DNA from: Rickettsiales bacterium
Lineage (GTDB): Bacteria > Pseudomonadota > Alphaproteobacteria > Rickettsiales > 21-14-0-20-44-7
Direction of reading: 5' to 3'
NCBI GenBank assembly: GCA_023301015.1
Contig: JALZVI010000147.1
Location: forward strand, 1-7,655
Length of the DNA stretch: 7,655 bases
The notes beneath the pieces are model-generated. The model did not search any database, was not told the origin of the DNA, and worked only from the letters and a program-made list of their open reading frames with translations. Each line of letters starts with the position of its first letter. Position 1 is the stretch's first letter. Shown here piece after piece: positions 2,891-7,655 of the stretch. Position numbers and translations under genes: made by a program.

Positions 2891-3550
2891 ATGACTGAAA
2901 GACTAGCACCAAAAGTATTCGCGGCATTTCTTGAAAAAATTGGCGCATTCCACAACATACCAAATGAAGTGAAGTCAAAAGACATTGGGAAGTTTGTTCT
3001 TGATAATTTGGAACAATTTGACCTCGCGTTAAACGATGCAGAATATTCTCGCGATAATGAAATTGATGGTGATATAAAAAGAATTGTGACCGAGGCAAGC
3101 AATCTAGACGTTATAGAAGCAACATTAGCGTGCGGACGAAAACTTAACAGCGCTTTTGTTGCGGATATCATGATTGAAGCAACTTCACCAGAAGCGATAA
3201 AAGACACTGCAAGTAATGCAATAGCATTCTTTGAACTAGGCATCAGCCATAAACAAATATCACAGATAGCCATTAATTGCACTGGCGAACAAGATGTTGC
3301 AGAAACTCTTGAAAAAGCGCGTTCAAAATTATCACCATTGGGAAATGCCCTTAGATCGACTGAATCTGAATTGGCACAAGCACATAGAGAAGTTGAAAAA
3401 CTCGAGCTTGCAAAACTTCGTGCAGAAAACAGCTTAGATACTGCAACTGGATGGATCGTACGCGGCACTATAAAGCCTGAAATACAAGCACCACCAGAAG
3501 CAACTGCTGCAACTCAAAACCCTGATGAGAAAACGCCAGAACGCAGCTAA
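2891..3550 (+). CDS. Hypothetical protein, helical with coiled-coil region (unrecognised family)
   Basis: I do not recognise this 219-residue protein. No signal peptide or membrane segment is visible, so it is probably cytoplasmic. The N-terminal two thirds (about 1-137) reads as a chain of short amphipathic helices rich in Ala, Ile, Asp and Glu, somewhat like helical-repeat proteins. Residues about 138-182 are highly charged with heptad-like spacing and could form a coiled coil. The last 20 or so residues are a low-complexity Pro/Ala/Glu/Thr tail. The start at 2891 is the only reasonable ATG, since the next in-frame Met is about 94 residues further in. It has its own promoter directly upstream and no Shine-Dalgarno site. 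The comM-like gene starts 41 bases downstream and may be co-transcribed. An open antisense frame over the same DNA (3468 to 2878) is Ser-rich and looks like a shadow. Confidence 0.7.
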   Translation: MTERLAPKVFAAFLEKIGAFHNIPNEVKSKDIGKFVLDNLEQFDLALNDAEYSRDNEIDGDIKRIVTEASNLDVIEATLACGRKLNSAFVADIMIEATSPEAIKDTASNAIAFFELGISHKQISQIAINCTGEQDVAETLEKARSKLSPLGNALRSTESELAQAHREVEKLELAKLRAENSLDTATGWIVRGTIKPEIQAPPEATAATQNPDEKTPERS

Positions 3551-5097: not shown

Positions 5098-5117
5098 CAA
5101 ATAAAGCCACACAAAAC

Positions 5118-5236
5118 AAGCAAAGCCAGTAGGCTTTGCCCAGCCTTGAGCACGCGTTAGCGCTCCCTCAGTCTGCGAGCCAGCAGGCGAGCGGGGAGGA
5201 AATTATAAAACCAGCGAGGAAACAATTAAAAACTCC
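5118..5236 (+). repeat. Intergenic hairpin repeat, copy A1 (fullest copy)
   Basis: This is the most complete copy of the repeat family. It has a perfect 8-bp hairpin at 5120-5139 (GCAAAGCC, loop AGTA, GGCTTTGC), a variable second arm around 5148-5165 that can pair with a small bulge, and a third block at 5166-5205. The third block is CCTCAGTCTGCGAGCC through to GCGGGGAGGAAATTA. After it comes a tail (about 5206-5236) containing CCAGCGAGGAAACAATTA and ACTCCT, which is shared with copy B2. Bases 5166-5189 are identical to 7632-7655, and 5186-5205 are identical to the reverse complement of 6041-6060. It sits between the comM stop and rpsD. Confidence 0.8.
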
Positions 5237-5285
5237 TGAGCGCGTTTCAGCCTACAAGCCGAAGGCGAAGCGGGGAGATAATTAA
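5232..5285 (+). repeat. Intergenic hairpin repeat, copy A2 (short form)
   Basis: This short form follows A1 in the same orientation, sharing the ACTCCT junction. It reads TGAGCGCGTTTCAG, then CCTACAA, a small hairpin GCC-GAA-GGC (5258-5266), then GAAGCGGGGAG and an AT-rich end. It matches copy B2 (6194-6240) closely. It ends about 8 bases before the -35 box of the rpsD promoter. Confidence 0.7.
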
Positions 5286-5292
5286 AAAGTAG

Positions 5293-5320
5293 TTGACATA
5301 CCAACCAAAACCTCTATATT
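5293..5320 (+). promoter_or_regulatory. Sigma70-type promoter of rpsD
   Basis: A perfect TTGACA (5293-5298), a 16-base spacer and TATATT (5315-5320, 5 of 6) form a near-consensus promoter. Transcription should start near 5327, giving a leader of about 30 bases before the ATG at 5357. The leader is A-rich and has no Shine-Dalgarno sequence. A strong promoter is expected for a ribosomal protein gene. Confidence 0.75.
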
Positions 5321-5356
5321 TCGCCGTCCAACTACATAATAAATAAGCAAAAAAAT

Positions 5357-5974
5357 ATGACAAAAATTGTAAAATCAAAATTCAAAATCAGCCGCCGTCT
5401 TGGCGTTGCGCTTTGGGGCCAAGCTAAAGACGCATTCAACATTCGCAAACTTCCTCCTGGGCAGCATGGCGAAGCGGCAACACGCAAGAAATATTCAGAT
5501 TTCGGCAAACAGTTGCGCGCTAAGCAACAGCTGAAAGGTTATTACAACATGACAGAAAAGCAGTTCCACGCTGTTTACAAGAAAGCGACACGCATTAAGG
5601 GTGATACTTCTGAGAACCTGATCGCATTGCTTGAGCGCCGCTTGGATGCGGTTGTTTATCGCGCTAATCTTGCACCAACAATTTTCTCTGCTCGCCAACT
5701 AGTTTCTCACAAGCATATTGTTGTGAACGGAATTAAGGTGAACATCGCTAGCTACCAAGTTAAAGATGGCGACGTTGTTGAGATTAAAGAAAAATCTCGC
5801 AAACTTCCAATCGTTATGGAAGCAGCGCAAAAGCAAGAGCGTGAAATTCCTGGTTACATGGAAGTTGATTTGGCAGCATCAAAAGCAACATACGGCCGTA
5901 GCGCTGGTTTGTTGGATGTACCATATCCAGTTCAAATGGAGCCAAATTTGGTTGTGGAATTCTACTCACGTTAG
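5357..5974 (+). CDS. rpsD: 30S ribosomal protein S4
   Basis: The 205-residue protein is the expected length for bacterial S4. S4 binds 16S rRNA early in assembly of the small subunit and contributes to decoding fidelity. The N-terminus has [10 protein letters not shown] and KLPPGQHG (31-38), then [14 protein letters not shown] (51-64). The S4 RNA-binding domain covers about 92-143 ([33 protein letters not shown]). The C-terminus [19 protein letters not shown] is classic. The N-terminal region has no Cys residues, so this is the zinc-free form. The gene stands alone rather than in the rpsM-rpsK-rpoA cluster, as is usual in alphaproteobacteria, and has its own promoter and terminator. No Shine-Dalgarno sequence precedes the ATG, but the conserved N-terminus leaves no doubt about the start. 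Confidence 0.98.
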
Positions 5975-5999
5975 GATCCACTAACACTACAAAAAATTC

Positions 6000-6030
6000 A
6001 AAAGCCTCAGCCACAAGCTGGGGCTTTTTT
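6000..6030 (+). terminator. Intrinsic terminator of rpsD
   Basis: A 12-bp stem (6000-6011 with 6017-6028, one T-G pair, loop CACAA) is followed by T residues to 6030. It begins 25 bases after the rpsD stop codon. Read on the other strand the same stem is followed by TTTTGAATTTTTT, so it could also stop transcription coming from the convergent - strand genes. Confidence 0.88.
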
Positions 6031-6040
6031 GTTGGTCTTT

Positions 6041-6127
6041 TAATTTCCTCCCCGCTCGCCTAATGGCGCGCAGACTGAGGAATTGCTTCGCAAGCTCATG
6101 GCTGGCAAGGCCTGCTGGCCTTGGGGT
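6041..6127 (-). repeat. Intergenic hairpin repeat, copy B1 (inverted orientation)
   Basis: Read on the - strand this copy has the same order as A1 and the copy at 7584. First comes hairpin CAAGGCC-AGCA-GGCCTTG (6123-6106), then GCCAGCC. The second arm forms GCTT-GCG-AAGC (6095-6085). The third block is TTCCTCAGTCTGCG to GCGGGGAGGAAATTA (6084-6041). In this copy the third block folds as a long imperfect hairpin: TTCCTC 6045-6050 pairs with GAGGAA 6077-6082, with a CGCC/GGCG tip and TAAT loop. It lies just after the rpsD terminator. Confidence 0.8.
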
Positions 6128-6137
6128 TATTAGAGAC

Positions 6138-6176
6138 TCTGGATTACCGCGTCGGCGACGCCTCCTCGCAATGACG
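6138..6176. repeat. Different palindromic repeat of the GTCATTGCGAGG type
   Basis: The 39 bases start TCTGGATTACC and end CCTCGCAATGACG, with a central GCGTC-GGC-GACGC hairpin (6149-6161). From memory, elements reading CGTCATTGCGAGG...GGATTCCAGA-like are common dispersed palindromes in many bacterial genomes. It lies between the inverted copies B1 and B2 and does not resemble them. Only one copy is in this window. Confidence 0.6.
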
Positions 6177-6187
6177 GATTAACGGCG

Positions 6188-6272
6188 CAGCCTTGAGCGC
6201 GTTTCAGTCTGCAAGGCGAAGCCGTAGCGGGGAGCAAATGAAAAACCAGCGGGGAAACAATTATAGACTCCT
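6188..6272 (+). repeat. Intergenic hairpin repeat, copy B2
   Basis: This copy starts CAGCCTTGAGCGCGTTTCAG like A2, has a small hairpin GGC-GAA-GCC (6215-6223) and then GTAGCGGGGAG. It continues with the tail CCAGCGGGGAAACAATTA and ACTCCT that is otherwise seen in A1. It therefore links the A1 tail and A2 as one family. It points opposite to B1, and its end touches the stop codon (6271-6273) of the - strand DUF2610-type gene. Confidence 0.7.
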
Positions 6273-6516
6273 ACTCAGTAGGGTAATTCAGCGCATACGT
6301 ACACAGATCAACGAACGAAACATTATTCTCGATCGAAATTTGGTGCAGCTTTTTCAGACTGTCCATCACGTCAGACGGAACACTTACTCCGCGTTCTTTG
6401 GAAATCCATGAGGATTGATGCTGGATTGGGTGCGATTTTGGATGCGGCTCACCGATATAAAACTGCACAGGAGTTTTTTGACCATTAACATCACAAGGAA
6501 TCACAAACATCTTCAT
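6271..6516 (-). CDS. Small DUF2610-type protein of unknown function
   Basis: This 81-residue protein resembles what I remember of DUF2610, a small family described mostly from Rickettsiales and other alphaproteobacteria. The features I match are the N-terminal MKMFVIPCDVNG, IGEPHPKSHPIQHQ (21-34), the SSWISKERG block (35-43), and the C-terminal PSDVMDSLKKLH and NNVSFVDLCTYAL (64-76), which look like two helices. It has no signal peptide or membrane helix. The function of the family is not known to me. It lies 31 bases after the oxidoreductase gene on the same strand and has its own promoter there, whose -10 box ends 6 bases before the ATG. No Shine-Dalgarno site is seen. The 3' end abuts repeat copy B2. 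The family call is from memory and has not been searched. Confidence 0.75.
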   Translation of the reverse strand: MKMFVIPCDVNGQKTPVQFYIGEPHPKSHPIQHQSSWISKERGVSVPSDVMDSLKKLHQISIENNVSFVDLCTYALNYPTE

Positions 6517-6522
6517 ATGCTC

Positions 6523-6551
6523 ATCATAGCATAATTCGCGCGCCTTCTCAA
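6523..6551 (-). promoter_or_regulatory. Sigma70-type promoter of the DUF2610-type gene (predicted leaderless)
   Basis: On the - strand, TTGAGA (6551-6546, 5 of 6) is followed by a 17-base spacer and TATGAT (6528-6523, 5 of 6). Six bases then lead to the ATG at 6516, so the transcript should start at the start codon. The -35 box overlaps the stop codon of the upstream oxidoreductase gene. Confidence 0.6.
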
Positions 6552-7486
6552 GCCTTCTGAACTTCTTTCAAACACTCGGCACTCAATTTCTCCGCCAAGC
6601 TGTTTTGCTGCAACCGCGCGCGCAAATGCTCAAAGTCTACAAAACGCATGTCTTGGTCTTGGTTTGTGCAGGAATAAACATAGCTCTCCGCGCCAGTCAC
6701 AGGGTCAACATGGCGTTGCAGACACTGGGCGCAAATCTCTTTCATCATGCACTGCATCGGCGAGTTGATTGAACCGACCATCTTCACATCGTCTTTGAAC
6801 AAACCCGCGTTCGGAACAAACTCAGCCACCGCGCGCATCATTCTGTCGGAACCGATGGCGATTATGTGATCGATTGAATGCGCCTGATTGCTGCCTATAT
6901 AACCCTTGATAGCCTCGATGATATTTCCATGAAAGCTGGAGTCGATCTCGCGCGTTTTCTCCAATTCCACCTCGTCACAGCACCAAATAATCACATCCGC
7001 CGCCGCCTCTATCTCCGCGATTTTATAGCGGTCTTGGGCTTTTTTGTAGCCAGCGAAATACGTCACATGGCAGCCATTTTCGCGCATGGCTTTACCGATG
7101 GAAAACAGCACAGCATTGCCTAAGCCACCGCCACAAAGCATCACATTCTCATCACGCGGAATTTCTGTTGGCGTGCCAGTTGGCCCCATCAGCACCACCT
7201 CTTCACCCACTTCTAAACCAGCACATAAATTGCTTGAGCCGCCCATTTCTAGAATTATTAAAGAGATCAAGCCATCCTCGGGCTTCACCCACGCACCCGT
7301 CATCGCAAGCGGCTCCATAGAGTTCGTGGCATCAGCAAAATTCTGCAACCGAAAGAACTGCCCAGGTTGAAAATTCTTCGCAGCCATTGGCGCATATAAA
7401 ACCACCTCCAATATCGTTGGAGTAAGGCGCACAACCTCATGCACGCGGGCAGAGAGGTTTGCGGAGATTTCAGACAGAGTTGGCAT
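6548..7486 (-). CDS. FAD/NAD(P)H-binding oxidoreductase subunit with C-terminal Cys cluster motif (PyrK/SudB-like)
   Basis: The 312-residue protein has the ferredoxin-reductase-like layout. An N-terminal FAD-binding barrel covers about 10-105 (FQPGQFFRLQNF, residues 39-50, and VGEEVVLMGPTGTP, 93-106). An NAD(P)-binding domain covers about 112-225 and begins with the nucleotide-binding loop LCGGGLGNAV (117-126). The C-terminal region has C246, C252, C255 and C273 (C-x5-C-x2-C-x17-C), probably binding an iron-sulfur cluster as in PyrK-type electron-transfer subunits. The region QCMMKEICAQCLQRHVDP with the following SCTNQDQ strongly recalls the C-terminal part of large alphaproteobacterial glutamate-synthase-like flavoproteins, where it is fused to a GltD-like module. 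Here it stands alone, and its electron partner is not in the window. The start at 7486 follows a promoter with only 6 intervening bases and no Shine-Dalgarno site. The exact substrate is unknown. Confidence 0.85.
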   Translation of the reverse strand: MPTLSEISANLSARVHEVVRLTPTILEVVLYAPMAAKNFQPGQFFRLQNFADATNSMEPLAMTGAWVKPEDGLISLIILEMGGSSNLCAGLEVGEEVVLMGPTGTPTEIPRDENVMLCGGGLGNAVLFSIGKAMRENGCHVTYFAGYKKAQDRYKIAEIEAAADVIIWCCDEVELEKTREIDSSFHGNIIEAIKGYIGSNQAHSIDHIIAIGSDRMMRAVAEFVPNAGLFKDDVKMVGSINSPMQCMMKEICAQCLQRHVDPVTGAESYVYSCTNQDQDMRFVDFEHLRARLQQNSLAEKLSAECLKEVQKA

Positions 7487-7492
7487 TGCTGT

Positions 7493-7521
7493 ATATTAGA
7501 TGGTGAACGGGGAACTGTAAA
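7493..7521 (-). promoter_or_regulatory. Probable promoter of the oxidoreductase gene (predicted leaderless)
   Basis: On the - strand, TTTACA (7521-7516, 5 of 6) is followed by a 17-base spacer and TAATAT (7498-7493, 4 of 6). Six bases then lead to the ATG at 7486. The -35 box lies inside the short tandem repeat at 7507-7534. It is weaker than the other promoters but has the same geometry. Confidence 0.45.
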
Positions 7522-7534
7522 CGGCGAACTGTTT
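7507..7534. repeat. Short imperfect tandem repeat, 2 x 14 bases
   Basis: ACGGGGAACTGTAA (7507-7520) is followed directly by ACGGCGAACTGTTT (7521-7534), with 11 of 14 bases equal. A partial further unit (GTGAACGG) lies just before. The repeat covers the -35 region of the oxidoreductase gene, so copy changes could affect its expression. Confidence 0.5.
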
Positions 7535-7583
7535 TTGTGGACGAGAAGAGATTATGTAAGCAGCATTGAAACGCATACATCAA

Positions 7584-7655
7584 CCTCCAAGGCCAGCAGG
7601 CCTTGCCAGCCACTCGCTAAGCGAAGCACTTCCTCAGTCTGCGAGCCAGCAGGCG
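7584..7655 (+). repeat. Intergenic hairpin repeat, copy C (cut by the window edge)
   Basis: The copy begins with hairpin CAAGGCC-AGCA-GGCCTTG (7588-7605) and GCCAGCC. A second arm TCGC-TAA-GCGA follows (7614-7624). The third block CCTCAGTCTGCGAGCC begins at 7632 and is identical to A1 for all 24 bases up to the window end. The element surely continues beyond 7655. It lies upstream of the - strand oxidoreductase gene. Confidence 0.8.

Follow-up and report, generated by a model that had tools for sequence, protein, structure and literature searches.

A dispersed three-hairpin element of Rickettsiales, probably a selfish palindromic family of its own

Rickettsia palindromic elements (RPEs), of which RPE-1 and others were reportedly described by Ogata et al. 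in 2000 and 2002, are short palindromic selfish DNA of the Rickettsiales; we know of no mobilizer for them. Here we analyze a repeat present in five copies in a 7,655-nt contig of a Rickettsiales bacterium (GenBank assembly GCA_023301015.1, contig JALZVI010000147.1; the whole stretch is called the window below) and its relatives in other genomes of the order. It is probably (at about 0.68 by our own estimate) a non-autonomous selfish palindromic element, RPE-like in behavior, with its own three-arm fold and seemingly a separate family.

In integron attC sites structure and a few loop bases are kept, stem sequence varies and one strand matters. The element appears analogous in keeping its structure and loop bases while its stems vary and in the apparent importance of one strand, and differs in the scattering of its copies over genes and spacers. 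Repetitive extragenic palindromic (REP) sequences and bacterial interspersed mosaic elements (BIMEs), accompanied by REP-associated tyrosine transposases (RAYTs), are likewise dispersed and mainly extragenic hairpin DNA without target duplication; unlike them, the element has no GTAG tag. CGTC-tagged REPs are small palindromes, common in alphaproteobacteria, partly intragenic and without a dedicated transposase (PMC3733652). The element resembles them in these respects, but each of them consists of one hairpin of 8-9 bp bearing a CGTC tag, whereas the element has three hairpins and no such tag; in the same source the CGTC REPs of R. conorii were equated with RPE-4 and RPE-6 (PMC3733652). RPEs are described as long stem-loops, 105-146 bp in length and bounded by terminal inverted repeats (PMC2229807), that occur as in-frame insertions in protein genes and within RNase P RNA (PMC2229807, PMC10969869). 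The element shares with RPEs its occurrence between genes, in frame in conserved genes and in RNase P RNA, and differs from such stem-loops by its three hairpins within 80-92 nt, its conserved loops and linker and its freely varying stems. The origin and movement of the protein-coding palindromes of Rickettsia have been open since RPEs were described (PMC2229807, PMC10969869). The element adds another case within this order, and one under clearer structural constraints: its loops are fixed, a linker pair covaries, a G.A motif is specific to one strand and the ends are sharp. The substrate of the mobilizer thereby becomes definable by computation and testable in vitro.

A three-hairpin fold kept by double changes

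The original prediction recognized five repeat copies in the window, three full and two short. All five were recovered by alignment, repeat search and covariance models trained on these same copies, with refined extents (Table 1); A1, B1 and C are indeed full copies (C is truncated at the window edge), and A2 and B2 consist of the 3' half only. In the repeat search A1 and B1 formed a 55-nt inverted pair of 85% identity, B1 and C a perfect inverted pair of 26 nt and A2 and B2 a 52-nt pair of 85% identity. The pattern TCAGTCTGCN{8,18}AGCGGGGAGNAAATNA, derived from the window copies, occurred three times in the window and in 0 of 200 shuffles. The copies are also, as had been stated, GC-richer (0.51-0.65) than the other intergenic DNA (0.419), the whole window having a GC content of 0.475.

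One strand of the element can be folded into three hairpins with conserved loops, linker and A-rich tail, the pairing being kept by double changes while the stem sequence drifts. On this strand the element measures approximately 80-92 nt and is composed, from 5' to 3', of hairpin 1, an AGCCnTGAGC linker, hairpin 2, a basal stem carrying hairpin 3, and the tail. Hairpins 1 and 3 have C(AGNA)G loops, and hairpin 2, usually GCGAAGC with a conserved GNA loop, is missing in short forms. The 5' edge is sharp and the 3' tail is close to CAATnAAAA; nothing outside the element was conserved among 100 copies. The AGCC of the linker was invariant in an alignment of 22 rows, and in one of 31 rows AGC was invariant and the final C present in at least 90%. 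The nucleotide preceding AGCC and its partner after it were C-G in 63, G-C in 28 and another combination in 3 of the 94 rows in which the linker was matched (it was not matched in 9 of the 103 rows, which represent 102 distinct copies). Hairpin 1 often contains two stacked G.A mismatches, found at the two positions in 57 and 61 of the 103 rows, with Watson-Crick pairs in 39 rows each. The strand-specific G.A motif and the linker pair indicate that one particular strand is the structured and important one.

In the 22-row alignment 78.5% of the cells were paired, compared with 60.0 ± 1.3 in shuffled and 33-42% in slid controls, and changes on both sides of a pair numbered 117 against 40 ± 5 in shuffles and were carried by 23 of the 26 pairs; the shuffled controls, like the 103-row pair counts, ignore kinship, and the slid control retains it. 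With the five window copies alone the covariation of the fold was matched by 91 of 500 shuffles, and the fold became clear only once relatives were added.

A short subtype was observed in genome G320 (L241 4730-4801, L232 5296-5367 and L241 11118-11191; G, C and L numbers are our handles for genomes, contigs and loci), in which hairpin 1 is typically GCGAGC-TGG-GCGAGC and there is little or no hairpin 2.

The relatives were found with two covariance models. Model R2, built from A1, B1 and C alone, was searched against 30 genomes with a good homologue of the reductase encoded in the window, out of 113 Rickettsiales genomes having such a match; 12 of the 30 matched at E ≤ 1e-3 (best 2.1e-10) and 19 at E ≤ 1. 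The matched sequences share the plan of the element, save a few weak ones that look like chance. The refined model R3 (22 rows) matched at least 51 of 343 Rickettsiales genomes at E ≤ 1e-3, a lower bound because the filters were strict and at most 12 candidates were scored per genome; all 11 seed genomes are among the 51, leaving 40 matched out of 332 non-seed genomes. Deep searches of 18 carriers, with up to 150 candidates scored per genome, gave 4-93 matches per genome at E ≤ 0.01, the highest counts being 93 in G117, 92 in G320, 79 in G346, 64 in G001 and 55 in G322, and the others 22, 21, 21, 20, 18, 16, 15, 10, 9, 7, 5, 5 and 4. The repeat belongs to a large family of short three-hairpin elements found in many environmental relatives of Rickettsia. 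Class-wide, R3 matched 4 of 385 sampled genomes at E ≤ 1e-4, three of them members of the order set (G001, G104 and G246). The fourth, G446, is the sole matched genome outside that set, with 3 matches at E ≤ 1e-4 (best 6.7e-12), possibly by horizontal transfer or as a misplaced relative.

The family is conserved in structure and not in sequence, and exact or near-exact sequence searches alone are misleading. A 23-base pattern had no match in viral contigs or in genome contigs. When one mismatch was allowed, a 16-base pattern had 3 scattered matches, all within 2 of the 343 genomes, compared with 4 for the reversed control pattern; searches by sequence pattern gave weak short matches in 7 plasmid records and none in phages. 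The only Rfam match of the window is due to chance, its 20.4 bits falling below the gathering score of 114; in 20 loci the element itself was unmatched, the RNase P match of L180 spanning it only as an insertion. This agrees with the original prediction, in which the repeat was not recognized as a named family. We recognized no description of a three-hairpin Rickettsiales element in the literature searched, which is weak evidence as most subscription papers lay outside its coverage.

Copies between genes, in protein genes and in RNase P RNA

Dispersed copies of the element occur in either orientation, for the most part between genes, and also in frame inside conserved protein genes and within RNase P RNA. 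None of the five window copies overlaps a gene. They occupy, as originally predicted, every long gap, that is all three above 100 nt (259, 296 and 169 nt), the remaining gaps being of 1, 38, 41 and 31 nt; intergenic DNA makes up 10.9% of the window, and in 0 of 200,000 random placements were all five copies intergenic. Among relatives, 66 of the 103 rows had enough context for location, the 37 left out (the window and loci shorter than 1,700 nt) being rich in in-gene copies. Of these 66, 51 lay between open reading frames (ORFs) of 100 aa or more and 8 inside an ORF, each time in sense; for the other 7 one flank was missing. Intergenic copies were 51 of the 59 classifiable ones, whereas in the 80 measured contig pieces spacers account for 9.2%, although this share is overstated because stop codons in the element shorten ORFs and the left-out loci held many in-gene copies; some of the 51 overlap a predicted ORF. 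As originally predicted, the copies are intergenic in the window and, with an inflated share, mostly so in the relatives; the claim that no copy lies in a coding region holds for the window and fails in the relatives. In same-strand gene pairs 18 copies had the same orientation as the genes and 14 the opposite (P = 0.60).

Of 106 distinct elements, 19 are flanked on either side by an open frame of 45 aa or more. Fourteen of these were judged to be real protein-gene insertions, 12 in sense and 2 in antisense (uvrC and a glycosyltransferase, both of G320). All ten ORFs submitted to NCBIfam matched named families, eight of them (hemW, three hemF, hisF, priA, carA and ubiD) on both sides of the element. 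The other two are weaker cases because the family match is on one side only: it stops at the element start in the TsaC/Sua5 ORF and lies only beyond the element in the creatininase-like ORF. Further in-gene cases are uvrC, the GT4 glycosyltransferase, lipB and, as the fourteenth, hemF of G240, which aligns with that of G239. The remaining five of the 19 comprise two RNase P loci and three loci (L145, L200 and L219) whose frames were tentatively judged spurious or upstream of a start.

Alignment with solved relatives located the extra residues in two of these proteins: where LipB spans 139 to 189 the relative is nearly contiguous (138/143), and where UvrC spans 466 to 516 it is contiguous (80/81). 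Both inserts are longer than the element, and other inserted DNA may therefore flank it. At hemF site 1 the element is present in G239 and G240 and absent from G244 and G246, and this is not a clean insertion because neighboring residues also differ; at site 2 it is common to G240, G244 and G246 and adds 27 residues. The RNase P RNA of G311 and G317 carries the element on the same strand in a hairpin loop, between model positions 136/137, so that the insertion lies in a peripheral loop, which we take to be P12. Elements also adjoin RNase P RNA in G120 and transfer-messenger RNA in G080; none overlapped an RNA gene in 12 further G346 loci. Conserved enzymes repeatedly accept extra residues, as at hemF site 2, and RNase P RNA accepts an extra domain; relatives lacking the insertion allow these sites to be compared.

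Two further observations concern these loci. The antisense short-subtype copies in uvrC and the glycosyltransferase gene of G320 encode a common peptide, GSGLSADxTLxxLKAGSPSS, and a Whalefall-1 RNA (RF01762) above the gathering score lies at 1950-2004 of L180 (G311), close to the element-bearing RNase P gene.

Nature and movement of the element

The in-frame gene copies and those in RNase P RNA point to RPE-like behavior, an option absent from the original prediction. As a selfish element, the family would spread as a folded single strand and would be recognized by shape, loops and linker rather than by stem sequence, by an enzyme that the searches did not find; inside genes it would survive because of its small size and because one frame or more is open. 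A more far-reaching proposal, which we regard as tentative and rather doubtful, is that of a family-spanning selfish element of Rickettsiales that spreads as folded single-stranded DNA or RNA, is recognized by its three-hairpin shape, loops and linker with stems drifting freely, is mobilized by an undescribed kind of enzyme other than a Y1 transposase or a reverse transcriptase, and has settled in essential protein genes and in the RNase P ribozyme.

Several observations weigh against a selfish element. The 102 distinct copies have a mean identity of 66% (maximum 91%; 370 pairs) within genomes and 61% (4781 pairs) between genomes, and since copies within a genome average only 66% there has been no recent burst. 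No mobilizer was found among the enzymes searched for, and no movement was observed. RNAalifold, run alone on the 22 rows, recovered 8 of the 26 named pairs, all 8 with double changes. In six orthologous pairs the identity of the element was 0.80-0.94 and that of the flanks 0.79-0.88, the element being higher in 4 and lower in 2; orthologous copies diverging about as slowly as their flanks could mean selection at the locus, though the result is mixed. In the same pairs 17 stem pairs had changed on both sides, 3 of them through G-U, and 20 were non-standard in at least one genome, some of these being alternative G.A pairs or misalignment. The unclean hemF site 1 and the overstated intergenic share belong here, as does the G.A motif, which marks one strand as structured. 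Old copies may have been kept folded by fast turnover of active lineages, by palindrome-correcting replication errors or by selection at each locus.

Together with the covariation, the conserved loops and the slow divergence of orthologous copies, the G.A motif would suit a functional structured RNA or mRNA element (a regulator, or a signal for RNA stability or processing) selected at each locus. Such an RNA is unlikely, as copies show no preferred orientation to transcription (18 against 14), lie in frame within unrelated genes and within RNase P RNA, and have no Rfam match. G-U pairs are also few, at 3.2% of the standard pairs of the element (68 of 2157) compared with 7.3% (51 of 699) in 32 tRNAs from the fetched loci (Fisher P = 9e-6, which assumes independent cells, an assumption that these cells do not meet). 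The element has 48 A.C mismatches against 68 G.U cells and the tRNAs have no A.C, although misalignment inflates both counts and the tRNA finder may avoid A.C or other non-standard pairs. The low G-U content and the unbiased orientation favor maintenance at the DNA level, perhaps as single-stranded DNA. Of narrower RNA roles, that of a terminator does not fit the tail, which is A-rich on the modeled strand, and that of an mRNA element is weakened by the unbiased orientation.

Common descent with RPE1 to RPE8, as a divergent Rickettsia palindromic element, would explain the shared order, the comparable size and the insertions in frame in protein genes and in RNase P RNA (PMC2229807, PMC10969869). 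We consider such descent quite unlikely. R3 matched none of 6 RPE1 loci, its best match there (E 0.55) lying away from RPE1, and neither the RPE1 peptide signature TIGR01045 nor sequence or structure homology to RPE1 was found; at the DNA level the comparison covered RPE1. No RPE model matched the uvrC and lipB ORFs (E ≤ 1) or ten other ORFs (E ≤ 1e-5), and the family comparison for the glycosyltransferase ORF covered the best 25 of 52 matches. Among the 343 genomes 65 carried RPE1 at E ≤ 1e-3, of which 57 exceeded the cut-off, in agreement with the assignment of this set to Rickettsiales. RPE1 carriers and the 51 R3 carriers were disjoint, with 9.7 overlaps expected (P = 8e-6, ignoring kinship). 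RPEs are moreover described as long stem-loops with terminal inverted repeats (PMC2229807), a different architecture from that of the element.

The original prediction proposed a REP-like or miniature inverted-repeat transposable element (MITE)-like family or a structured RNA. In general character this was correct. The dispersed, structured and multi-copy nature with full and short forms was borne out, and the predicted presence in many copies per genome holds for the relatives; the cognate Y1 transposase and the target-site duplication of a MITE were not supported. Among 100 copies there was no excess of target-site duplications over permuted flanks (52 of 200 permutations were as high), and a MITE derived from an insertion sequence is not supported on this ground. 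Transposition by Y1/HUH enzymes is expected to leave no target-site duplication, so that this absence, with the short hairpins, many copies and mainly extragenic location, agrees with a REP/BIME-type element moved by a RAYT. That assignment is nevertheless very unlikely. Across 102 copies none of the bases upstream of hairpin 1 is conserved, so that a tetranucleotide tag at the hairpin foot is lacking. The Y1 transposase family PF01797 was found in 8 of the 30 Rickettsiales genomes, but among the 16 R3-positive ones only G235, G245 and G324 had it, and in a set of 20 carriers only G320 did, though genomes may be incomplete. A mobilizing reverse transcriptase was likewise unsupported, PF00078 (RVT_1) occurring in 1 of the 20 carriers, G119. 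The rarity of both enzymes among carriers argues against either as the mobilizer of the selfish element, with the reservation that assemblies may be incomplete. The seven RVT_1 matches of G119, on contigs C217, C215, C152, C20 and others, fall in ORFs that reach 2196 aa and resemble eukaryotic non-LTR (long terminal repeat) retroelements; they are therefore possibly foreign DNA in the assembly.

The copies and their surroundings in the window

The window encodes the end of a TolQ/ExbB protein, a family-5 solute-binding protein, CoaX, an orphan protein, a YifB-type ATPase, RpsD, a DUF2610 protein and an FAD/NAD-binding reductase; the named matches among homologues of RpsD and of the reductase include 'Rickettsiales bacterium'. 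The coordinates of the copies and of the parts of A1 are given in Table 1. The rpsD gene has a good promoter (TTGACA-16-TATATT), whose -35 box lies 4 nt from the tail of A2, and B1 lies a few bases downstream of the rpsD terminator. Because small fragments resembling the 3' end follow A1 and B2, these gaps may have been hit repeatedly.

Table 1. Positions of the element copies, the parts of A1 and associated fragments in the window
Feature	Positions	Strand	Remarks
A1, full element	5117..5209	+	Between yifB and rpsD; R2 99.9 bits, R3 72.4 bits (A1 in both training sets)
Hairpin 1 of A1	5120..5139	+	GCAAAGCC-AGTA-GGCTTTGC; C(AGNA)G loop
Linker of A1, CCAGCCTTGAGC	5140..5151	+	
Hairpin 2 of A1	5153..5162	+	CGC-GTTA-GCG; commonest form in relatives GCGAAGC
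Basal stem of A1	5166..5199	+	CCTC/GAGG, TCTGC/GCGGG; tip is hairpin 3, GCC-AGCA-GGC (5179-5188)
A-rich 3' tail of A1	5200..5209	+	Tail kept across 100 copies, no conservation past it
3'-end-like fragment after A1, ACCAGCGAGGAAACAATTAAAA	5210..5231	+	22 nt; similar fragment follows B2
A2, short element (3' half)	5232..5288	+	R1 56.6 bits (A2 in training); R3 8.3 bits, E 0.15
B1, full element	6037..6127	-	R2 105.8 bits, R3 85.1 bits (B1 in both training sets)
B2, short element, without hairpins 1 and 2	6188..6245	+	R1 57.5 bits (B2 in training); R3 13.5 bits, E 0.006
3'-end-like fragment after B2, CCAGCGGGGAAACAATTATAGA	6246..6267	+	22 nt
C, full element	7584..7655	+	Window edge cuts inside hairpin 3; R2 62.1-71.6 bits, R3 29.3-43.6 bits (C in both training sets)

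B1 and B2 are separated by a different repeat, the CGTC-REP-like GGATTACCGCGTCGGCGACGCCTCCTCGCAATGACGG at 6139-6178. Ten of 300 fetched loci also contain its core, CCTCGCAATGACG; some of the ten overlap one another, and L288 and L290-L292, which are Rickettsia-like, are among them.

Two of the window genes were also noted. An orphan ORF of 219 aa (2891-3550) had no Pfam or NCBIfam match. The FAD/NAD-binding reductase (6548-7486) is a stand-alone protein of 312 aa and its nine closest homologues measure 251-331 aa, but in most of the 113 matched Rickettsiales genomes the homologue lies inside an open frame of approximately 1,000-1,250 aa.

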